Part shown: positions 297 to 11,370 of the stretch, piece by piece | Layout: each line of letters starts with the position of its first letter | Position numbering within the stretch: the first letter of the stretch is position 1 | NCBI GenBank assembly: GCA_018457135.1 | Contig: JAGGDU010000191.1 | Span: forward strand, 1 to 64,000 | DNA from: Trichodesmium erythraeum GBRTRLIN201 | GTDB taxonomy: Bacteria; Cyanobacteriota; Cyanobacteriia; Cyanobacteriales; Microcoleaceae | DNA length: 64,000 nucleotides | Direction: 5' to 3' | Translations under genes and position numbers: made by a program | Notes under the pieces: generated by a model | Databases searched by the model: none | The model's input: only the letters and a program-made list of their open reading frames with translations | What the model was told of the DNA's origin: nothing

Positions 297-1016
297 ATGA
301 TTAAAAAAGCACTTGTAACGGGTTCAGCAGTTGGAATAGGTAGGGCGATCGCTCTCGACTTAGCTAGGAAAGGATTTGATGTAGCATTTCACTATAACCG
401 AAGTGCAGAAGCAGCCAACCAAGGAAGTCAAGAAGCAGCTACCTACGGAGTCAAGTCTATTGCTCTACAAGCAGATGTTACTAAACCAGAGCAAGCTAAA
501 TCTTTAGTAGAAAATGCAGCCGAAAAACTCGGAGGGTTATCTGTTGTAGTTAATAATGTGGGAAACTTTCTGGAAAAAACAACTAGTCAAATATCCATAG
601 AAGAATGGGATGAAATGCTTGATTCAAATTTAAATTCCACTTTCTATGTCACTCAAACAACAATTCCTTACCTCAAGGCAGCAGGTTGGGGACGTATTGT
701 CAACTTCAGTTTCGCAAGTGCCCAACATCTAAAAGCAGATGACCAACAAACAGCCTATAGAATTGCCAAAACTGGTATAATCATCTATAGTAAGTCCCTA
801 GCTCAAGAATTAGTTAAGGATAAAATTACAGTAAATGTAGTTGCCCCAGGAGCAGCAGAAAATACTATTGGTCTGGAGGAAACTATTCCTCTGCTCCCAA
901 CTAAGCGACCTGCAACTTTGAAAGAAGTAACTCATGCAGTTGCTTTTTTTGTCAGTCCTGAGTCAGATTACATTACTGGGCAAGTTCTGGAAGTAGCAGG
1001 GGGTTACAGGTTGTAG
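297..1016 (+). CDS. Short-chain dehydrogenase/reductase, pteridine-reductase-like (copy 1)
   Basis: 239 residues, classical SDR size. The N-terminus has the Rossmann motif TGSAVGIG (residues 8-15), NNVG near residue 86, and the catalytic pair in TAYRIAK, with Ser exactly 13 residues before the Tyr. The C-terminus ends in a TGQVLEVAGG strand typical of tetrameric FabG/pteridine reductases. The family uses NADPH to reduce a carbonyl or a dihydropterin. Because a DHPS-like gene follows 83 bp downstream and the pair is repeated, I infer a pterin substrate, but the FabG-like acyl reductase family cannot be excluded from sequence. No clear Shine-Dalgarno precedes the ATG; the leader CAAAGACAATG resembles that of copy 2. 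Confidence 0.75.
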   Translation: MIKKALVTGSAVGIGRAIALDLARKGFDVAFHYNRSAEAANQGSQEAATYGVKSIALQADVTKPEQAKSLVENAAEKLGGLSVVVNNVGNFLEKTTSQISIEEWDEMLDSNLNSTFYVTQTTIPYLKAAGWGRIVNFSFASAQHLKADDQQTAYRIAKTGIIIYSKSLAQELVKDKITVNVVAPGAAENTIGLEETIPLLPTKRPATLKEVTHAVAFFVSPESDYITGQVLEVAGGYRL

Positions 1017-1099
1017 CAATACTTAGCTATTTTCCTTGACAAAGATTGGGAATTTTAGCCGACTGAAAATTGTTATTGATTAAATAAAGGAGTTCAAAA

Positions 1100-2005
1100 A
1101 TGCTTACTCTCGCAGAAATCTACGAAATTTATGACAAATATAAAGATGACTACAATACCCAAATAGAAGAGTTCAGTATTGGGAATAAAAAATTTAATTT
1201 TAATTCTCAAACATCTATTTTAGGAATCATTAATCTTTCTCAAGATTCTTGGTATAAGCAAACTATTTCTTACACTCCAGAACAAGCAATTCGCCGTGGA
1301 AAAGTATTAACACTTCAAGGTGCGGATATTATAGATATTGGCACTGAGTCTACTGTGAAAACTGCAGCTAGGGTAGACGAGTTGAAACAAACAAGTCAAC
1401 TTTTGCCTATTCTGAAAACTTTCAGTCAAGAAGGTGTGTTAACTTCAGTGGAAACTTATTATCCAGAAGTTGCCAGAGAATGCTTAAAAGCAGGTGCAAA
1501 TGTCATCAACTTTCTGGGAACTGAGCATAGTGAAGAAATGTATCAAGCTGTAGCTGACTTTGATGCAGCAATTATTATTTGTTATGTAGAAGGAAAACAC
1601 GCTAGAGATGTAGGGGAATTTGACTTTACTTCAGGTAGAGATATGATAGATGTACTATACAATTATTTTGAAAAAGAGATAGAAATAGCAACGAAAATAG
1701 GAGTGAAAAAGATTTTTATTGATCCAGCAGTAGGTGTAGGATACACAAATTTTTACTACCAACACAAAAATGTATCAAATAGAATGAGATATCAAATTGA
1801 AACTCTTTTAAATGCTTTTCGGCTTAGAAAATTAGGCTTTCCTGTTTTTAATCAAATACCTACAGCTTTAGAAATTTTTGGAGAAGAGTTTAGAAGTGCT
1901 CAAGTGTTCACGGCAGTGTTTGCAGCACTAGGAAAAAATGATATGATTAGAACTCATGAAGTTGCTAAAGTTAAAGCTCTTTTAGAAACTCTGAGTTGCT
2001 TGTGA
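1100..2005 (+). CDS. Dihydropteroate-synthase-like protein lacking the SRK motif (copy 1)
   Basis: 301 residues with a pterin-binding TIM-barrel pattern. Visible motifs in order are LGIINLSQDSW (the GILNVTPDSF strand), ADIIDIGTEST, SVETYYPEVA (SVDT with Asp changed to Glu), ANVIN, FIDPAVGVG and a C-terminal RTHEV (RVHDV). DHPS normally joins dihydropterin pyrophosphate to p-aminobenzoate using a conserved SRK loop; here that region reads LGFPVFNQIPTAL, with no Ser-Arg-Lys. Pterin binding therefore looks retained while acceptor/phosphate binding is changed. About 90 extra residues vary between the two copies. A strong AAAGGAG ribosome-binding site lies before the ATG. It sits between the two SDR genes, same strand, 30 bp before copy 2. 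Confidence 0.75.
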   Translation: MLTLAEIYEIYDKYKDDYNTQIEEFSIGNKKFNFNSQTSILGIINLSQDSWYKQTISYTPEQAIRRGKVLTLQGADIIDIGTESTVKTAARVDELKQTSQLLPILKTFSQEGVLTSVETYYPEVARECLKAGANVINFLGTEHSEEMYQAVADFDAAIIICYVEGKHARDVGEFDFTSGRDMIDVLYNYFEKEIEIATKIGVKKIFIDPAVGVGYTNFYYQHKNVSNRMRYQIETLLNAFRLRKLGFPVFNQIPTALEIFGEEFRSAQVFTAVFAALGKNDMIRTHEVAKVKALLETLSCL

Positions 2006-2035
2006 TAGTTTAGATAGAACTTAATATTCAAGACA

Positions 2036-2755
2036 ATGCTAAAAAAAGCACTTGTGACAGGTTCAGGAGTGGGAATAGGTAGGGCGATCGCTCTTGACTT
2101 AGCTGAGAAAGGATTTGATGTAGCATTTCACTATAACCGGAATGCCGAGGCAGCTAACCAAGCAAGTCAAGAAGCAGCTACCTACGGAGTCAAATCTATT
2201 GCTCTACAAGCAGATGTGACTAGGCCAGAGTCAGCTCAATGTTTAGTAGAAAATGCAGCAGAAAAACTTGGAGGTTTATCAGTAGTAGTCAATAATGTGG
2301 GCAACTTTTTAGGAAGACCTACTAGCAAAATATCCATAGCAGAGTGGCAGGAAGTTATTGACTCTAACCTCAATTCCAATTTCTATGTTACTACAGCAGC
2401 ACTCCCCCATCTGAAAGCAGCTAATGGGGCACGAATAGTTAATTTTGCTTGCGCTCATGCTCAAAATGTGGTAGCACGAAAGACAAATACGGCTTATGTA
2501 ATTGCCAAAACAGGGATTATCATCTATAGTAAGTCTCTGGCTCAAGAGCTGATTAAAGACAAAATTACTGTTAATGTAGTATCTCCTGGAATAGCTGAGA
2601 ATTCTTTTGACCTAGAAGAAATGATTCCTAAGTTACCTGCTAAACGTCCAGCAACTTTGCGAGAAATTAATCATGCAGTTTGGTTTTTTATTAATCCTAA
2701 TTCTGATTATATTACAGGACAAATTATAGAAGTATCTGGTGGTTGGAATTTATAG
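2036..2755 (+). CDS. Short-chain dehydrogenase/reductase, pteridine-reductase-like (copy 2)
   Basis: 239 residues, exactly the length of copy 1 and clearly a recent paralogue: TGSGVGIG at the N-terminus, NNVGNFL, and TAYVIAK for the Tyr/Lys pair. The notable difference is the residue 13 positions before the catalytic Tyr, which is His (FACAHAQ) instead of Ser. Known pteridine reductases of the PTR1 type carry Asp there, so the position is known to vary with substrate class. The gene starts 30 bp after the first DHPS-like gene and shares the CAAGACAATG start context with copy 1, consistent with duplication of a reductase plus synthase-like module. Confidence 0.75.
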   Translation: MLKKALVTGSGVGIGRAIALDLAEKGFDVAFHYNRNAEAANQASQEAATYGVKSIALQADVTRPESAQCLVENAAEKLGGLSVVVNNVGNFLGRPTSKISIAEWQEVIDSNLNSNFYVTTAALPHLKAANGARIVNFACAHAQNVVARKTNTAYVIAKTGIIIYSKSLAQELIKDKITVNVVSPGIAENSFDLEEMIPKLPAKRPATLREINHAVWFFINPNSDYITGQIIEVSGGWNL

Positions 2756-3134
2756 ACAGGAAATAGGGAATATCAAAGGCAAAAGATAGAAGCTAGAAGG
2801 GAAGAAAAAGCACTTATGGGAGAAGTTTTTTTTATGATTGATGATCCGGATATGATATGACATATATCTGGCAATTTTTGGGAATTTTAGATTCAAAAAA
2901 ATAGCTGTAATCAAATGGATAGTAGGAAAAAATTTAACTTATTTAGGTTAGTCAGCCTCTGACTAATAAATAAGGTCTTAAGCACTTTTATTTAAGGGAG
3001 ATAAGAAAGAAAATTTCTGGTTTTTTTGCCTCCGGATGAAACTATAGGTACTGCTTCCCTACGGCACATGAAAAACGTACTTCCTCCCCCACCAAAGCTA
3101 ATTAATAACTAATAACTGATAACGGATAAATGAT
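2756..3134. other. Intergenic spacer before the second DHPS-like gene
   Basis: No gene seen. It contains a repeat-like stretch (3033-3087, TCCGGAT then ACTGCTTCCCTACGGCACA and AAAAACGTACTTCCTCC) that recurs in altered form near 27570-27627, and ends in heptamer repeats of the TAACTGA type immediately before the next start codon. Confidence 0.5.
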
Positions 3135-4028
3135 ATGCTGAATCTTGAAGATTTATATACAATCCATGAACAAAACCAAGATTCTATAAAAGCCAAAGTA
3201 GAAGAATTTTCTATTGGTAATAAGCAGTTTAACTTTAATACTGAGAAAGCTATTTTAGGAGTAATAAATCTTTCTAATGATTCTTGGTATAGAGAAAGTG
3301 TCTGTTTGAGTGCAGAAACAGCCATTCGTAGAGGAATAGTTTTGAAGTCTCAAGGTGCAGATGTAGTAGATATTGGAGCAGAATCAACTTTAGAAAAGGC
3401 GGAAAGAGTAGAAGATATTAGGCAAAAAAGTCAAATTTTGCCAGTTCTGAAAGCCCTTCATCAAGAAGGTGTTTTAACTTCTATAGAAACATATTATCCA
3501 GAAGTTGCCACGGAATGTTTAAAAGCAGGAGCTAATATAATTAATTTAACTGGACCCGAAAAAAGTGCAGAAATTTATCAGACTGTATCTGAATTTAATG
3601 CGGGGGTAATTATCTGTTATGTTCAGGGAAAAAATGTTAGAGAAGTAGGTGATTTTGATTTTGGAGATGACCCCACAAATTTAATGTATGAATATTTTGC
3701 TCAAGAAATAGAAACGGCAACTAAGTATGGTGTGAGAAAAATATTTATTGACCCTGGTTTAGGATTTTATTATAAAAATCTTCAGGATAGTTCTTTACGA
3801 ATTGGTTATCAGATGAAAACTTTTTTAAATACTTTTAGATTGAGGAAATTAGGTTTTCCAGTATGTCATGCACTTCCCCATGCTTTTGAATGTTTTGGAG
3901 AAGAAGTTAGAAGTGCTGAACCTTTTTTTTGTGTCTTGGCTGCACTGGGAAAAACTGACTTATTTAGAACTCATGAAGTTCCTAAAATTAGAGCTGTTTT
4001 AGATACTTTGGGATTATTTCAAAAATAA
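3135..4028 (+). CDS. Dihydropteroate-synthase-like protein lacking the SRK motif (copy 2)
   Basis: 297 residues, paralogue of the protein at 1100-2005. Motifs: LGVINLSNDSW, ADVVDIGAEST, SIETYYPEVA, ANIINLTGPE, FIDPGLGF and RTHEV. As in copy 1 the SVDT aspartate is Glu, and the SRK loop is absent, replaced by LGFPVCHALPHAF. The consistent loss in both copies argues for a selected change of activity and not decay. The ATG at 3135 is preceded by heptamer repeats of TAACTGA type and no clear Shine-Dalgarno. The 380-bp gap to the upstream SDR suggests its own promoter. Confidence 0.75.
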   Translation: MLNLEDLYTIHEQNQDSIKAKVEEFSIGNKQFNFNTEKAILGVINLSNDSWYRESVCLSAETAIRRGIVLKSQGADVVDIGAESTLEKAERVEDIRQKSQILPVLKALHQEGVLTSIETYYPEVATECLKAGANIINLTGPEKSAEIYQTVSEFNAGVIICYVQGKNVREVGDFDFGDDPTNLMYEYFAQEIETATKYGVRKIFIDPGLGFYYKNLQDSSLRIGYQMKTFLNTFRLRKLGFPVCHALPHAFECFGEEVRSAEPFFCVLAALGKTDLFRTHEVPKIRAVLDTLGLFQK

Positions 4029-4598
4029 GGAAGTAGGGGGAATTTCTAGTGGTGTACTAACATCCCCAAAACAAAAATGTAGGCCTTTGTAGAATAAAGT
4101 GAATCCTAACAAACCTGTTCTCCTCTTTTGGTTAGATTTCGTCCCTCAGCCTAACTAACCTCTATTGCAGCAATTTTAGTTGTGTTAGTCTAGTAGAGTG
4201 CCTTAGACGGTTTAATTTAGGCTGTCAAAGGTATTTATAAATATGTTGTAATGCACTATTTTAGTGGTATTATTCTAGTTGTTTATGCCCTGATGGAACT
4301 TATCACCAATTTCCTCAAGTTAAGAACATATAACTTGATATCTTATCTTTCAAGCTTGATAGACTACTTTTGGAAGTTAAGTTTTAAGTTGATGAAATTG
4401 GTATTATACAAAATAGTAGTAGAAAATAGGGTTAAAGTTAGTAGCAAGGAAGAAGGAATAAAAAACTTAAATTTGAGTAGAGAGTTCCCAAAAGTTGAGG
4501 TATGTAATAATAGATATGCTTCAATTTTATTTCTTCCTGATAGTCTTCTTAATTCGTTACCTTTTAGTTTTACTTATAACTGATAGCTGAGGTGTTAA
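4029..4598. other. Intergenic spacer, no convincing gene
   Basis: A 110-codon open frame exists at 4251-4583 but it is Leu/Asn/Lys/Tyr rich, has no recognisable domain and no good ribosome-binding site, so I do not call it. The last bases hold ATAACTGATAGCTGAGG, which supplies a GAGG ribosome-binding site for the next gene. Confidence 0.4.
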
Positions 4599-5043
4599 AT
4601 GAAAAAAAAAAGATGAAAAAGATCAAACTATAAAAAATGAATCTGACTCAGAAACTTGGGTAATAGGTAAAGAGTTTAGGTTTGAAGCTTCTCATCAACT
4701 ACCTAATCATGATGGGAAATGTGCAAGATTACATGGTCATTCTTGGCGTGGTGTTATTTATGTTTCTGGTAATAAGTTGATAACTTCTGGAGCTAAAAAA
4801 GGTATGATTATGGATTATGGAGATATTAAAAAATATCTCCAACCACTACTGGATAATTATTTAGACCATTACCATTTAAACGAAACTACAGGTTTAGCTA
4901 ACCCAAGCAGCGAAGCCATAGCTAAATGGATTTACGAACAATTAGAAAATAAAATTCCTGGGCTTGTAGCAGTTAGAATTGATGAAACTTGTACCAGTCA
5001 ATGTATTTATTCAAAAGGTAAAATTAATTTTTTGATTTCTTAG
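4599..5043 (+). CDS. 6-pyruvoyltetrahydropterin synthase / QueD family, frame broken in a ten-A run
   Basis: About 147 residues if the frame is restored. Family motifs are complete: zinc-ligand His in FEASHQL, catalytic Cys and the other two zinc His in CARLHGH, MIMDYGDIKK, LDHYHLNE, PSSEAIAKWIYEQL and RIDETCTSQ. The family converts dihydroneopterin triphosphate to 6-pyruvoyl- or 6-carboxy-tetrahydropterin. The only start with a ribosome-binding site (GAGG, 6-7 nt spacing) is ATG 4599, but it is followed by ten A residues (4602-4611) and then reads to TGA at 4614; with nine A it would continue straight into the domain. No ATG, GTG or TTG lies in the coding frame until TTG 4777, after the active site. 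This is a homopolymer indel, an assembly error, or polymerase slippage. Its location after two DHPS-like genes favours a pterin rather than queuosine role. Confidence 0.75.
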
Positions 5044-5481: not shown

Positions 5482-6148
5482 GTATTTTATTACTTTCATT
5501 GGTTTCTTGTCTTAGCAAATGATCAGAGTTATAATGAATCTAATGCCACATACCAAGGGCGAGAAGTTAACCATCAAAGTGCTAAAGGAGCTGCCTATAT
5601 CGAACGTTTTAATATTTTTTTAAAGCGCAAAGGTTTACCCTTCAGTTATGTTAGTATTTGCGAATTAGTTTATTATATAGGTGTAGTTCATCAGCTATTT
5701 TTGTGAAATAAAAATATCCTGAATGACCTTACTTGTTGTAATGAAGCACAGTGGTCTGAAGAAGATGTGCGATGGTGTTGTCAATGCGCAAAATGTGCTT
5801 TTTCTTATGCTTTAATTGAAGCCGTAACAGATTATCATTTTGCCTCCCAGGTAGTAGGAAAAGACTTATTTAGCTTAAAAAAAAATTGAGGATATTTGGA
5901 AACGTTTATTTGACCCAAATTATGAGAAACCATTTGAGTGTGTTGGTGAAAAACGTGAGACTTTGATGGCTTTAGTTAAATGCCGAAAACAACGTCTCAA
6001 AAATGGCGAATCTTTGGGTATTCTGGCCGAGATACCTGAAGTCGAATTTGATAAATCTCTACTAAAAATATCTACTCCTCAAAATATTCCAATTCAACAT
6101 CAAGAAAAACTTAATTTGGTTTTGACTGAATCAGGTAAATATTCTTAA
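5482..6148 (+). pseudogene. MurL-like (UDP-MurNAc-L-Ala-L-Glu epimerase family) pseudogene
   Basis: Conceptual translation gives NESNATYQGREVNHQSAKG, then YIERFNIFLKRKGLPFSYVS, then WCCQCAKCAFSYALIEA and EKPFECVGEKRETLMAL. The VNH-Q-SKG, C-x2-C-x2-CAF and KPFECVGE blocks match my recollection of the MurL glutamate epimerase family C-terminal half. The gene is dead: the N-terminal half is missing (the frame opens only after TAA 5479-5481), an in-frame TGA lies at 5704 where a Trp codon would fit, and a nine-A run at 5877-5885 shifts the frame so that only the last third (to 6148) is open. The family assignment is from motif memory; a related uncharacterised Cys-rich family is the alternative. 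Confidence 0.55.
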
Positions 6149-6818: not shown

Positions 6819-7811
6819 CTATATACTTTTTTGGCAGAGATAAACTCCTTCTTCTTGATTAGCAGATTCCCAATAATTCAACATATTTATCCCATAACTA
6901 CTGAGGATTTCTTGGAGTTTTGCAGTAGTATAACGGTAGGAAAAAAATAACCCAATTTTATCTCCGCTTTTCCATTCTATCAATTGATTATCCAATTTAA
7001 AAGTCACATCATTATTTAATTCAAAATCAGCATTAACTCTTTTTAAATCAGGTTTTTCCTCATCATCTTTAATCCTAAATTTAATGCTCCCATTTTCCCG
7101 GTTAACTCCCACATCTTCCAATACAGTAGTTAGCCAATCTTTAGTCAAGTTATTATTATATTGCGCCATTATTTTTTCAATACCTTGAACATAGTCAGAA
7201 CCAGGTGCTAAATTTGCACTTAATAGCAATAAATCTCCCTCAACCAAAAAATTGTTTAAAATTGGGAAAATTTCCTGGGGATGAAAATTAGGAATCATGC
7301 CAAAAAATGTAATAATTCTCCTTTCCTGCTCACTTCTTTTCTGAATCTGAAGCATTAAATTATCACTATGAAGTAAATCACAAACAATTGGTTGTACAGA
7401 TAATTCAGGAAAAGAACTCCTAGCTTTTTGAGCAGAAATTATTGCTAGAGATAAACTAACATCTAGAGGATAATAAGTTAATTCTCGTCGTTTATTAGAT
7501 AAGTAGGACAATAACAAACTATCTTTAGTTCCACCACCAGAACCTAATCCAATTAACTGTAAACTGGAAAATTTATCTAGAGTTTCTGCTGTTTTTTGGA
7601 AACATTTTTTATAAGTATCAACACAATTTCTATCATTTTGAGAAGGGGAATATTCTTGATGAATTTTTAACCATTTTTGACTTTGCTTAACACTATCATA
7701 ATGAAACTTATGATTAATTTTTTTCCCCGAGAAACTAACTAAATAATCTTGATAAACTTGGTCCGGAAATTGACTTGGATGTACAAATACTTGTTCAAAT
7801 GTTGCTGACAT
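6819..7811 (-). CDS. EgtD-like SAM-dependent methyltransferase
   Basis: 330 residues, the usual length for the histidine-specific methyltransferase (Methyltransf_33) fold. The SAM-binding motif is LIGLGSGGGTKDSLLL (about residues 86-101), followed by YYPLDVSLSL and FFGMIPNFHPQE, equivalent to the ELGSGSG, VDIS and GSxIGNF blocks of EgtD. EgtD trimethylates histidine for ergothioneine. However, the downstream YDD...GVT...NxNRELG region is only weakly kept (LEDVGVNRENGSIKFRI) and no EgtB or EgtC neighbour is present, so the substrate may not be histidine. It lies 122 bp after the P-loop ATPase gene on the same strand and could be the last cistron of that operon. Confidence 0.65.
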   Translation of the reverse strand: MSATFEQVFVHPSQFPDQVYQDYLVSFSGKKINHKFHYDSVKQSQKWLKIHQEYSPSQNDRNCVDTYKKCFQKTAETLDKFSSLQLIGLGSGGGTKDSLLLSYLSNKRRELTYYPLDVSLSLAIISAQKARSSFPELSVQPIVCDLLHSDNLMLQIQKRSEQERRIITFFGMIPNFHPQEIFPILNNFLVEGDLLLLSANLAPGSDYVQGIEKIMAQYNNNLTKDWLTTVLEDVGVNRENGSIKFRIKDDEEKPDLKRVNADFELNNDVTFKLDNQLIEWKSGDKIGLFFSYRYTTAKLQEILSSYGINMLNYWESANQEEGVYLCQKSI

Positions 7812-7933: not shown

Positions 7934-9436
7934 TTATCTTGAACGTTTAATTCCACCCTTGCGTTTAACTTCAAAACCATATCGATAAATATCGGGGATA
8001 TTAATTCTCCGATCTAAGCGAATTTCAACAATACCTAATTGTTCTAAGTATTGTAAAATTTCTTGGGGCTTTAATGAAGGTGGTTCTTGGTTCCATTTTG
8101 TGTTTTCTAGTAAGTTGAGAAATTTTTCTTCTTCAGTTAGAAGTGTTAAATCTTTAAGTTCTTTTCTTAAAGCTTCTAACCAGGGATATTCTTCCTCTGT
8201 AAGTTCTTTGATTCGATCTTGAGAGGTATCCATTAAAGCTCCTTGTAAATCAGAAGGTTCTAATAAGCGATTTTCGGGCAATTCTTTTTCGTCAAATTTT
8301 TCTAATCTACGCTCTGCAGCCAAGGAGAATAACCTTAAAAAAGAACGAGGAGAAATGCTACGTTTTGCATCTTGAAGGTGATTAGAAATCCAGTTATAAG
8401 TGTAGCCTTTGCGAGGATTTTCTCCCATAAATACCCCAACTATTTTTTCCATTAATAATTCAAAACGAGATTCATCTGATGTAGGTAATATACCTAGGAT
8501 GTTATCTCTTTTTAAAGTTGAAGGAATTAAATCAGGAACTATTTTTAAATAATCATTCATTTCTTCTCCAGAGTTAGCTAAACGCTTTACCAATAACTGA
8601 TATAACAATGGAGTTTTCCACTCTAAAGTAATTTGATGTCCCCTGAGTTTAGAAGCATCTGGAAATCCTAAAAAATCGTGTTGAAATAAGTCTGTGCGTA
8701 GAAATATTTTGGGTCTAATTCGTTCCCAACGACGCCATCTATCTAGCCAAAATGCTAATAGTTCGGCGATGGGAGCCCGCAGTTTTAAATAAGAAGGAAC
8801 AATTCGATCTAGTTCATCATAAGTGATAAATAACCAGCGATCGTCTGCCAATAATTCTTCATCTAATTTATCTAAAGCATAGTTGATACTTTCAAAGTTC
8901 TGGCGAGCATCTGGAAACCAGCCGGAAAGTAATGATAATTTGTTAGTTAAACAACCACGAATGTCCTCTGGTATTTCCTGAGCCCAATTGTGATTTGATA
9001 ATTCTTTTTCTTGTTGAAATATTACTCCTAATACCAATCCGATCCAAAAAATACGCCAATCACTTCTATCCTTGTCTTTCATGTAGTTTTCTGTTACATC
9101 TGGTGTAGGAAATTTTTTTTCCCTAGTCTTAGTACGACCATATCCAGCAATCCAAATTGTTTTTTCTAAAGGGGGTAAGCGTTTAATTGTTAAGTTTTTT
9201 ACTAAGGCTTTGCGACCATTAGGACTTCCTAGTAAACGAAAAAATTCTGTTTTACCAACACCTCTGCCACCTAATATTAAAAATGTATCAGTGTCCAATG
9301 TCTTACGGTAGCGATCTACAGGTAAAAAGTTTTTTAGAAATAAATTTTCATTATCACTTTCATGTTCAGCTATACCTTTTCCTGGTGTAACATTAGCCAT
9401 AATTTCTAATAGCTTTTTTTTATCAAAGTTAGTCAT
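7934..9436 (-). CDS. P-loop ATPase, partner of the KGGVGR ATPase
   Basis: 500 residues. Walker A is GGRGVGKT (residues 56-63) and a Walker B-like segment is WLFITYDELDRI (201-212), followed by RPKIFLRTDLF (241-251), an arrangement seen in STAND/KAP-like and Sll1717-type P-loop ATPases. The central part is helical with many Leu/Arg; the C-terminal 50 residues (QEILQYLEQLGIVEIRLDRR) look like a winged helix. No membrane segment. It starts 8 bp after the stop of the ParA-like gene, so the two are translationally linked. The molecular function is unknown; an NTP-driven sensor or effector loader is an inference from the neighbourhood. Confidence 0.65.
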   Translation of the reverse strand: MTNFDKKKLLEIMANVTPGKGIAEHESDNENLFLKNFLPVDRYRKTLDTDTFLILGGRGVGKTEFFRLLGSPNGRKALVKNLTIKRLPPLEKTIWIAGYGRTKTREKKFPTPDVTENYMKDKDRSDWRIFWIGLVLGVIFQQEKELSNHNWAQEIPEDIRGCLTNKLSLLSGWFPDARQNFESINYALDKLDEELLADDRWLFITYDELDRIVPSYLKLRAPIAELLAFWLDRWRRWERIRPKIFLRTDLFQHDFLGFPDASKLRGHQITLEWKTPLLYQLLVKRLANSGEEMNDYLKIVPDLIPSTLKRDNILGILPTSDESRFELLMEKIVGVFMGENPRKGYTYNWISNHLQDAKRSISPRSFLRLFSLAAERRLEKFDEKELPENRLLEPSDLQGALMDTSQDRIKELTEEEYPWLEALRKELKDLTLLTEEEKFLNLLENTKWNQEPPSLKPQEILQYLEQLGIVEIRLDRRINIPDIYRYGFEVKRKGGIKRSR

Positions 9437-9444
9437 TTTCCTAC

Positions 9445-10845
9445 CTAATTTTTCAGGTTCAATTTACGGTTAAAAAGACGGCACAGTCTTTCTGCCAGTC
9501 GTTGATAAGGTTTACCTGTTAAAATATCAATAATATTTAACAAAGAACTATCTTCTTCAACAGCAGAATATTCAAATAAATTTATTTCTCTACGCAATTC
9601 ACTTTGCCAGTCTATAACTATTGGGTAAAAACGATCTTCTTGACCATTGGAGTTAGGAACATCTTCGCTAGAGCTATAGTAATGATCTTGAAAAACACTA
9701 TAAGCGTCCTCTCGAAATTTTCTCAGCTCCTGCTCTCTTCCTGGTACACCTATTCCTGGAGCTAGAGCATGGATGAGTAACAGTGGCAAAGCTTCGGGAG
9801 CTAAAGGTTTTGCTAGACGACGAATAACTTGAGTTAGTCCTGCCCAACTTTGACGAGATTGAGTGCCAAAAATGACTGCTGCATGGGAGAATTCAGCGAT
9901 CGCTAATCCTCCAAGATCGTGAAAACCTGTTCTGGTATCAAGTAAAATAAAATCTAGTTTCCCTGCTGCTTCATTCAGTTCTTTGAACTTATCAGACGCT
10001 GCTTCATTCAGTTCTTTGAACATATCAGACCAAGTTTTTTCCAGTGGGTTATTGACATTGAGCAAATTCTGGCAATCAAGTCTTGCCAACTTTTCCAGAT
10101 AGTTATTATCCACATTTCCTGCACTCAGTATAGGTAAAATTCTGTCTTCATCTCCTAATAAATTTTCATCCTTGAATGATTCTAAATGATCCTTAAGTTC
10201 CCAATTCTTACCTTGGATATTTTTCTCTAACAAATAATCAATTATCCCTGGAAGACTCTTCTCTCGATCTGGGAAGAAAAAAGTGAATATACCAGGAGAT
10301 TCTAAATCTAAATCGACTACAGCTACTTGATGACCGTGACGAGCTAATGTCAGAGCTGTTGCAACTAATGTTGTTGTGCGACCAACTCCACCTTTGAAGG
10401 AAAAAAACGAAACTATTGCTGGTTTATGACCTTGATCTACTACTTTCTGAGGCCAAGGAGGCTCAGTTTCTTTTTTATTTGTCCATGCTTGTTTAGCAAC
10501 ATGACGCTCTAACACATACCAACGAGGTTGACTTTCATCATCCCATTCAGCGGAAACTCTTTCCGAGCGGATCACATCTATCAAATTTTTATAACCATCT
10601 TTTTCTCCTTGTGGTAGCCAAATATCGTGGCCGTAGTAGGAAACGAGTTTATTCTCAAGGCGTTCTTCTAAGTGATTTAGAATAATATCTTCAAGATTTT
10701 TGTTTTCTAGAGGTTCCAGGAAAAGTCTAATCTTTCCCTGCACATCGCGAATTATAGTTATTGATTCTAGTTGGTCTTTTATAGAAGATTCTTCAAAGCA
10801 TTCTTGCACTTTGTCAAATGTTTCACTGAAAGTAATATTAGTCAT
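9445..10845 (-). CDS. KGGVGR-variant ParA/MinD-like ATPase
   Basis: 466 residues. An unassigned N-terminal domain of about 140 residues precedes the deviant Walker A FFSFKGGVGRTTTL (K151), then VAVVDLDLESPG and LDTRTGFHDLGG, the switch motifs of the MinD/ParA class. The Arg in KGGVGR instead of KGGVGKT defines a variant that is frequent in uncharacterised multi-gene systems. Residues SD-x-FKELNEAA occur twice in tandem just before the LDFILLDTR strand (33-bp DNA repeat at about 9964-10029). Its ATG immediately abuts the HEPN stop (TAAATG), and the P-loop ATPase follows after 8 bp. No parB or partition site is nearby, which argues against plasmid partitioning. Confidence 0.75.
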   Translation of the reverse strand: MTNITFSETFDKVQECFEESSIKDQLESITIIRDVQGKIRLFLEPLENKNLEDIILNHLEERLENKLVSYYGHDIWLPQGEKDGYKNLIDVIRSERVSAEWDDESQPRWYVLERHVAKQAWTNKKETEPPWPQKVVDQGHKPAIVSFFSFKGGVGRTTTLVATALTLARHGHQVAVVDLDLESPGIFTFFFPDREKSLPGIIDYLLEKNIQGKNWELKDHLESFKDENLLGDEDRILPILSAGNVDNNYLEKLARLDCQNLLNVNNPLEKTWSDMFKELNEAASDKFKELNEAAGKLDFILLDTRTGFHDLGGLAIAEFSHAAVIFGTQSRQSWAGLTQVIRRLAKPLAPEALPLLLIHALAPGIGVPGREQELRKFREDAYSVFQDHYYSSSEDVPNSNGQEDRFYPIVIDWQSELRREINLFEYSAVEEDSSLLNIIDILTGKPYQRLAERLCRLFNRKLNLKN

Positions 10846-11370
10846 TTAAAGCTCCTCACTAGATATCCTACCATCCAAAATTAGTTTGGGAATAATTTCG
10901 TTATAGATTTCTGCTGCTCGTTTAACTGCTTCTTTTGCCTTGAATTCCTTGCACCAACCAGACTGAAAATAACGTCGCTCTGGATGATATTCAGCTAAAA
11001 CTGTCCCTTTTATCCGGGAAATTGACAGTTGAGCATCAAGAATAGGATAAATTATCCGTAATCTTCCAATGCCTTTACCTTGAAGTTGTCTTAAATTGTG
11101 ACCGAATTTTTGACAAGCTTTATTGTTAATATATTGCTCTACTATAACTTTAAGAGTACATTCTACCACATAGCCTGCCAAGTAAACTGCATTATCCCAA
11201 CGATGTTGAGCTAGCATAATTTCTGCATCATATAAATGCCTTCCAGCAGCTTGGATAAATGACTCTTTAAAATGACTCTTAAATGACTCTTTGATAGATG
11301 AATCTTTTGAATCTTTTGAATCTTTTGACTCTTTTGACTCTTTTGACTCTTTGATAGATGAATCTTTCAT
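10846..11370 (-). CDS. HEPN-domain protein with Ser-Lys-Glu/Asp repeat tail
   Basis: 174 residues. From about residue 38 it matches the HEPN helical fold: AAGRHLYDAEIMLAQHRWDN, then AVYLAGYVVECTLK and a later KFGHNLRQL. HEPN proteins are often RNases in toxin-antitoxin and defence operons, but the usual Arg-x4-6-His active site is not evident here, so it may be a scaffold or inactive version. The first 35 residues are a charged low-complexity tail built from SKE and SKD triplets, encoded by imperfect 9-bp repeats (about 11300-11348) bounded by two copies of TTTGATAGATGAATCTTT. ATG 11370 is the only in-frame Met. It is directly joined to the ATPase gene downstream. Confidence 0.65.
   Translation of the reverse strand: MKDSSIKESKESKESKDSKDSKDSSIKESFKSHFKESFIQAAGRHLYDAEIMLAQHRWDNAVYLAGYVVECTLKVIVEQYINNKACQKFGHNLRQLQGKGIGRLRIIYPILDAQLSISRIKGTVLAEYHPERRYFQSGWCKEFKAKEAVKRAAEIYNEIIPKLILDGRISSEEL

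Follow-up and report, generated by a model that had tools for sequence, protein, structure and literature searches.

A dihydropteroate synthase-like family with TmpR-like reductases and an EgtD-sister methyltransferase: a candidate branch of the folate pathway in Trichodesmium and other bacteria

Introduction

What would a cyanobacterium make with two dihydropteroate synthase (DHPS)-like genes in addition to a canonical folP? At the start of a 64,000-nucleotide stretch of Trichodesmium erythraeum GBRTRLIN201 DNA (contig JAGGDU010000191.1, here C191, 94,726 bases long, of the 7.2-Mb cyanobacterial genome G000; the whole stretch is called the window), four intact open reading frames (ORFs) lie on the plus strand in the order short-chain dehydrogenase/reductase (SDR), DHPS-like, SDR, DHPS-like, and a frame of the PTPS/QueD family lies 3' of them. 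A sequence-only reading of this row had proposed that it modifies a pterin other than folate. The answer that we develop here, and to which we give an even chance of being right, is that the row belongs to a dedicated branch of the folate pathway in which the DHPS-like protein (DHPSL) would couple a pterin pyrophosphate to an amine other than p-aminobenzoate (pABA), the SDR would carry out a reduction, and a methyltransferase (MT) encoded close by would N-methylate.

Results

The alternation on one strand that had been read from the sequence stands. SDR1 (297–1016) and SDR2 (2036–2755), each of 239 residues, match adh_short_C2 (8.4e-48 and 1.6e-45), and the putative condensing enzymes DHPSL1 (1100–2005, 301 residues) and DHPSL2 (3135–4028, 297 residues) match the Pfam family Pterin_bind, PF00809 (1.4e-29 and 6.2e-30). 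The motifs listed for the DHPS-like proteins are also there (INLS-DSW, ESTx, IDP and RTHEV), SRK is missing, and the Asp of SVDT is replaced by Glu.

How much of the DHPS active site do these proteins retain? In an alignment of 28 DHPSL with 16 canonical DHPS, numbered by PDB 1tws of B. anthracis (with C-terminal residue numbers that we assume to follow that scheme), all 28 DHPSL keep Asn27, Ser32, Glu65, Asn120, Asp184, Arg254 and His256, and all 28 carry the exchanges Asp101 to Glu, Thr29 to Ser and Asp257 to Glu. Both Arg68 of loop 2 and the Lys of SRK are missing from every DHPSL, whereas the canonical set has Arg68 in 15 of 16 proteins and the SRK Lys and Asp101 in 16 of 16; the commonest substitute for the Ser-Arg of SRK is Pro-His. 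The residues of the pyrophosphate chemistry, which we take to include Arg254, His256 and Asn27, look preserved. According to the available portion of PMC2994781, the pterin pocket of DHPS has residues that include one each of Asn, Lys and Arg besides three Asp, and the Arg of loop D2 (Lys217 there) together with Lys383/Ser385 is tied to the carboxyl group of pABA; we infer the match of these residues to 1tws numbers from their order and motifs. The pattern of kept and lost residues therefore suggests that the pyrophosphate chemistry is preserved, that the grip on pABA is lost, and that the pterin pocket has been retuned. The pterin-side motifs had been read as kept, but the pterin pocket is altered too, an Asp and the SRK Lys being pocket residues in the same portion of PMC2994781.

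G000 does have the separate canonical folP that the sequence-only reading had called for, a full-length gene on contig C209 (E 1.1e-86). Such a gene is found in 24 of 25 DHPSL genomes, the exception (G390) being a metagenome assembly, and DHPSL is therefore probably not the cell's DHPS.

An AlphaFold2 model of DHPSL1, built on 32 sequences, has a pLDDT (predicted local distance difference test) of 91, and in each of two comparisons with solved folds, by Foldseek and by VIA, all 50 folds listed are DHPS or Sul enzymes (top matches 3tyd, Foldseek E 4.5e-19, and 3tyz, VIA Z 31.6, 2.1 A over 262 residues). A common fold by itself proves no function. Could DHPSL instead be a pterin-dependent methyl or one-carbon transferase, with a pterin domain like that of MetH or AcsE, whose tetrahydropterin is recycled or modified by MT and SDR? 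Methyltransferase members of the pterin-binding superfamily are not known to have the SRK Lys, which DHPSL lacks as well. On the other hand, the DHPS active-site residues Arg254, His256 and Asn27 are kept in all 28 sequences, the folds listed in both comparisons are of DHPS or Sul enzymes, and the gene for HPPK, the maker of the pyrophosphate, lies beside DHPSL in five loci examined (L015, L020, L022, L034 and L029/L136). We thus hold the transferase to be highly improbable, and return to a DHPS-like condensation.

Maximum-likelihood analysis places the 28 DHPSL in one monophyletic group apart from the 16 canonical DHPS (support 100/100). DHPSL1 groups with its orthologues of G358 (98/100) and Moorena (95/99), and DHPSL2 with those of G149 (Dolichospermum), G155 and Hormoscilla (97/92). 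The two window copies belong to separate orthologue groups and are therefore ancient paralogues. With FolP (TIGR01496, PF00809), DHPSL share the TIM barrel, Asn27, Asn120, Asp184, Arg254 and His256, and the adjoining FolB and/or HPPK genes in several lineages; they differ in scoring 110.6 (DHPSL1) and 114.3 bits (DHPSL2), under the TIGR01496 equivalog cut-off of 162.6, in the changes at Asp101, Asp257, Arg68 and the SRK Lys, and in their own clade. They also resemble FolP2, which in the available portion of PMC1971073 is a non-folate DHPS paralogue that accompanies a working folP: folP2 of M. leprae fails to complement an E. coli folP mutant, and actinobacterial FolP2 genes cluster with cell-wall genes. 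FolP2 is a weaker PDB match for DHPSL than FolP (2vp8, E 1.2e-19), and the same portion of PMC1971073 reports no SDR or MT partnership.

The family is rare. Among 386 cyanobacterial genomes searched at E <= 1e-25, close relatives of DHPSL1 occur in three besides G000 (G358, G155 and G149), and among 387 Verrucomicrobiota searched at E <= 1e-45, DHPSL occurs in nine, counts that weaker members could escape, as the best ~5–7 candidates per genome were scored. Three more cyanobacterial matches (27–34% identity, ~1e-26) stand well apart from DHPSL; one of them, in G109, adjoins a triose-phosphate-isomerase-type gene (recognised by eye), a neighbour that it shares with the canonical folP of G000. 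When the genomes of 84,980 species were scanned, at least 15 DHPSL loci matched with 36–61% identity along most or all of the query's length, and below them identity dropped to 33% or less. Those listed are from three cyanobacteria (one, L020, being the G149 contig), two Streptomyces, one Roseibium, one alphaproteobacterium and eight of verrucomicrobial type, that is, labelled Verrucomicrobiota or placed among them in the tree. One further DHPSL, annotated as dihydropteroate synthase (WP_152499760.1), lies on a Roseibium plasmid. A phage origin was considered and rejected: viral contigs, queried for close relatives only, held none, and 19 phage records held only distant DHPS matches. The plasmids of PLSDB gave no MT match at E 1e-5 and no close SDR at E 1e-40.

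Both window SDRs exceed the cut-off of NF012208, the 'bifunctional dihydropteridine reductase/dihydrofolate reductase TmpR' family (382.7 bits for SDR1 and 378.8 for SDR2, cut-off 325), and are named here as TmpR-like pteridine/dihydrofolate-type reductases. SDR1 has the motifs TGX3GXG and Y-x3-K, with Ser at position -13 from the catalytic Tyr; SDR2 has His there. Other SDRs that accompany DHPSL score below that cut-off (220.1 in L029 and 111 in Roseibium). At E <= 1e-50, the SDR clade is present in 5 of 373 cyanobacterial genomes, namely all four with DHPSL plus G286. In G286 (L183, 7821–8979), the SDR gene and the end of a NUDIX gene overlap, the NUDIX–SDR pair having 64% and 54% identity. 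Inspection of neighbourhoods showed that the verrucomicrobial SDR of the window type adjoins DHPSL or MT in eight of nine genomes (not in G693). The PTR1/FolM motif is TGX3RXG in the available portion of PMC1971073; all three alphaproteobacterial SDRs have it, together with Asp at -13, and it is absent from the window SDRs. SDRs of two types are found with DHPSL, which suggests a need for reduction in the pathway.

Could the set be an antifolate-tolerant bypass, in which DHPSL and the TmpR-like SDR act as alternative isozymes of DHPS and dihydrofolate reductase (DHFR) and make ordinary folate, for instance as a means of surviving natural antifolates or for want of a DHFR? TmpR is linked to trimethoprim resistance, and the window SDRs surpass its cut-off. 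No PF00186-type DHFR match was found in G000, and the Sul enzymes, by their family names, are DHPS homologues recruited for resistance. The loop-2 Arg and SRK Lys, however, which the available portion of PMC2994781 ties to the pABA carboxyl and to pterin binding, are lost from all 28 aligned DHPSL, and canonical folP coexists with the family in 24 of 25 genomes. Moreover, an SDR that was the usual stand-in for FolA should be common, and this one is in 5 of 373 cyanobacteria (a count made regardless of FolA). The bypass would also leave the co-occurrence of MT, described below, unexplained. We therefore regard it as unlikely and prefer the non-folate branch.

The row had been thought to end at position 5043, but we count as a member the gene at 6819–7811 on the minus strand, which encodes a 330-residue protein of family PF10017 (3.5e-27), a predicted SAM (S-adenosylmethionine)-dependent N-methyltransferase and the proposed third core gene. 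Its nearest known relative is EgtD: a model of MT (pLDDT 87, six sequences behind it) has EgtD as its top match (4uy5, TM 0.77, Foldseek E 2.9e-18). The scores against the EgtD equivalog TIGR03438 (cut-off 290.9) are only 80.8 bits for the window MT and 59.4 for that of Hormoscilla, and that of L029 gives no match at E <= 1e-10, whereas an EgtD fragment from Streptomyces guryensis (L031), used as a control, reaches 313.9 bits and keeps Glu282 and Met252. In a quick tree, the MTs form a clade apart from EgtD (SH-aLRT, the Shimodaira–Hasegawa-like approximate likelihood-ratio test, 100). A weak match in G358 (26%, 1.2e-11) groups with EgtD and was counted as such, and G000 has a separate EgtD-like gene on contig C45 (24% identity). 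The control fragment (L031, 16785–17573, minus strand) is a genuine EgtD, 61% identical to PDB 4uy6, that lies ~6 kb from DHPSL.

What might this enzyme methylate? A residue comparison (METHYLTRANSFERASE role) set 16 MTs, without the MT of G390 that is split over two contigs, against six EgtD-type rows. All 16 MTs keep Tyr39, Asn166, Tyr206, Thr213 and Ser284 (EgtD numbering), positions to which we assign, as an assumption, the amine- and SAM-binding roles that they have in EgtD. Glu282, which presumably contacts the imidazole of the substrate histidine, is Glu in all six EgtD-type rows and Phe in all 16 MTs; Phe47 has become Trp in all 16, and position 252, Met in EgtD, is Ala in twelve, Val in two, Gly in one and Phe in one (hence Ala, Val or Gly in 15 of 16). 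PDB 4pip is, by its title, an engineered EgtD-M252V,E282A with bound tryptophan. The kept residues, the changes at Glu282 and Met252, and this engineered enzyme together indicate that MT probably binds an amino-acid-like amine with a side chain larger and less polar than that of histidine.

MT was searched at E <= 1e-20 in the 386 cyanobacteria and 387 Verrucomicrobiota and at 1e-6 in a broader search of DHPSL genomes; the MT of G720, the weakest that was accepted (7.9e-22), comes close to the cut-off. It occurs in three of the 386 cyanobacteria, all among the four with DHPSL (hypergeometric 4e-7), and in exactly the same nine of 387 Verrucomicrobiota as DHPSL (2e-18), values that treat genomes as independent, although the DHPSL tree shows four of the nine Verrucomicrobiota to be closely related. 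Altogether, 17 of the 25 searchable DHPSL genomes have MT (Moorena is outside the count). Over 16 genomes, the identities of DHPSL and MT correlate (Pearson r = 0.92, Spearman 0.60; none of 9,999 permutations as high), which could be explained by shared descent alone.

The gene rows bring the same partners together. The genes of GC-rich loci were called with a simple codon-usage caller, so that details may err, and were named by eye where no library scan was made, as for the triose-phosphate isomerase near folP. The row is FolB-HPPK-DHPSL-SDR in the alphaproteobacterium L034, FolB-DHPSL-SDR in Roseibium (L014 and L033), NUDIX-MT-SDR-DHPSL-(-)HPPK in Hormoscilla (L022), NUDIX-SDR-DHPSL-PTPS-FAD-(-)HPPK-MT-(-)FolB in Dolichospermum (L020), and HPPK/DHPSL-SDR-MT in L029. 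MT adjoins DHPSL or is one gene off in Hormoscilla, L026, L029 and L032, and is 2.4 kb off in Dolichospermum L020; in six of the nine Verrucomicrobiota (L150–L155), it lies away from DHPSL, adjoining and divergent from SDR. In five cyanobacterial loci (L015, L016, L020, L021 and L022), the set comes with NUDIX genes, and in L161, FolB adjoins a HAD-NUDIX fusion 3 kb from MT.

HPPK and FolB were considered as pathway-specific copies and set aside, since G000 has only one HPPK, paired with FolB on another contig, and in G149 and G398 the sole HPPK is the one beside DHPSL. Two possible exceptions are left: G393 has a second HPPK, the one that adjoins DHPSL (L029), which has diverged (44.5 vs 110.4 bits), and additional weak HPPK matches are found in G358. 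A riboflavin synthase-type gene (Lum_binding, 3.9e-42 in L157) adjoins SDR in L157 and L158 and lies 5.4 kb from MT in L162; it was rejected as a pathway part and is probably a housekeeping neighbour. The genes shared by the two Streptomyces flanks were rejected likewise, as, beyond DHPSL itself and a frame that lies antisense within it, they come down to a single pair of other ORFs matching at 29%.

Besides the dependence among genomes noted above, several observations weigh against the proposed branch. HPPK, FolB, NUDIX and the FAD gene have no match within the 64-kb window. The single HPPK of G000 is divergent from FolB, with both on another contig, and the HPPK beside the cluster of G149 is the only one in that genome, so that the adjacency of HPPK to DHPSL may be opportunistic. 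MT is absent from 8 of the 25 genomes (G358; G388, G389 and G391, which are three metagenome-assembled genomes of Verrucomicrobiota type; two Streptomyces; and two alphaproteobacteria), and methylation is therefore not universal; in only one of the nine Verrucomicrobiota is it within 2.5 kb of DHPSL. Among the reductases, TGX3RXG is found in none of the 16 cyanobacterial and verrucomicrobial SDRs, the window ones having TGX3GXG, and the -13 Ser is missing from five of these 16. The search of 386 genomes found no DHPSL in G286, where the SDR may be a relic or may serve some purpose independent of DHPSL. Lastly, the flanks of DHPSL in the two Streptomyces hold no other pathway gene, and several Verrucomicrobiota loci have DHPSL with no SDR within reach. 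Homologues thus do occur without pterin genes nearby, in Streptomyces and in several Verrucomicrobiota, although the genomes of Verrucomicrobiota and Cyanobacteria carry the partner genes together, in trans.

Could MT be an unrelated neighbour, and the product a tetrahydropterin without methylation (a pterin glycoside, for example) that serves as a signal or as the cofactor of a photoreceptor? Cyanobacteria are known for pterin glycosides, on which the sequence-only reading had drawn, and the PTPS and NUDIX neighbours in several loci, as well as the eight genomes without MT, would fit such a product. No recurring neighbour cluster is glycosyltransferase-like, though the clusters are only partly annotated. 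Furthermore, the genome sets of MT and DHPSL are identical in the 387 Verrucomicrobiota and nested in the 386 cyanobacteria, and the correlation of their identities, for which shared descent alone might account, also speaks for a link between the two. A glycoside or other non-methylated product as the general outcome has, in our view, little chance of being correct, and we continue with the branch that includes MT in most lineages.

The PTPS/QueD-family frame (4603–5043, plus strand) had been taken for a pathway member. It is probably accessory; we rejected it as a core part, since among the loci examined it lies beside DHPSL only in the window and in G149 and G155, where its adjoining relatives are 83–85% identical. 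The domain is there (PF01242, 2.2e-33, with the CxxxHGH motif as CARLHGH), and the match is the sole one in G000. On the other hand, the start that had been assigned, at 4777, does not hold: it is a TTG inside the domain, and the frame runs over 4603–5043. An in-frame TGA stands at 4600–4602, with no ATG, GTG or TTG until 4777, and the run of ten A (4602–4611) that follows the ATG at 4599 puts that codon out of the PTPS frame. The lack of a usable start could be due to slippage, an unusual start, a sequencing error or decay. In 8 of 13 cyanobacterial genomes searched, two adjacent PTPS domains stand in one open frame.

At the protein level, the SDR copies are 76% identical, and DHPSL1 and DHPSL2 are 58% identical. 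A recent tandem duplication of the SDR-DHPSL module was rejected, given this identity of the DHPSL copies and their different orthologue sets. The first 270 bp of the SDR genes (297–566 vs 2036–2305) are 84–92% identical in 90-bp windows and the remainder 58–79%, which likely reflects a gene conversion tract across the 5' 270 bp. Any genes 5' of SDR1 are missing from the data because the contig begins at window base 1. At 5716–6121 (plus strand) there is a decayed, frameshifted remnant, without a Pfam match, that is 63–65% identical to a 138-residue ORF directly 3' of DHPSL in Moorena (L021, 10893–11306). Beside MT, three genes at 7934–11370 (minus strand) match A, B and C of the PADLOC candidate defence system PDC-M28 (1.9e-11, 1.8e-61 and 7.5e-80); they encode a HEPN-like protein (below the Pfam cut-off), a MinD/ParA-like ATPase and a protein without a Pfam match.

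Discussion

How might these proteins work together? In the branch that we propose, the ordinary FolB/HPPK route would supply 6-hydroxymethyl-7,8-dihydropterin pyrophosphate. DHPSL would displace pyrophosphate as DHPS does and attach an amine acceptor other than pABA, giving a dihydropterin conjugate and pyrophosphate. The TmpR/FolM-like SDR would then reduce the conjugate to the tetrahydro level with NADPH, and, in most lineages, MT would use SAM to N-methylate the amine of the acceptor, either before or after coupling. For the acceptor, an amino acid or amine of aromatic or hydrophobic character is most likely, and where a lineage lacks MT, its product would be non-methylated. The non-folate pterin route of the sequence-only reading thus gains in plausibility from the separate folP, from the FolB, HPPK and NUDIX neighbours in several lineages, and from the loss of the pABA-side residues in all 28 aligned DHPSL. 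Its further idea, that the duplicated module yields two variants, keeps some appeal: G000 may make two products because it has one paralogue of each cyanobacterial type, and G358, with the DHPSL1 type only, has no MT; these ancient paralogues and their separate orthologue groups are only suggestive of two products.

Non-folate DHPS paralogues (FolP2, as far as the available portion of PMC1971073 goes) and SDR pteridine reductases are already known kinds of enzymes. In the open-access full-text literature, we found, for the terms used, no description of a set of DHPS-like, SDR and EgtD-like proteins. More tentatively, and with the odds against it, the product in at least two phyla may be an unrecognised folate analogue, in which a methylene bridge like that of folate would link a tetrahydropterin to an aromatic amino acid or amine that is N-methylated. 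Paralogues of DHPS and EgtD, together with a pteridine reductase, would build it, and it would act as a cofactor or natural antifolate distinct from folate and methanopterin.

If the proposed pathway is true, proteins annotated as 'dihydropteroate synthase', such as Roseibium WP_152499760.1, would not be folate enzymes and would instead catalyse the committing step of an undescribed pterin pathway. The TmpR reductases would acquire a native setting, and DHPS and EgtD would be a clear example of two enzymes each given a new specialisation at positions known to contact the substrate. As a small, testable unit with one of its substrates already predicted, the set of three genes could then lead to a new cofactor or natural product.

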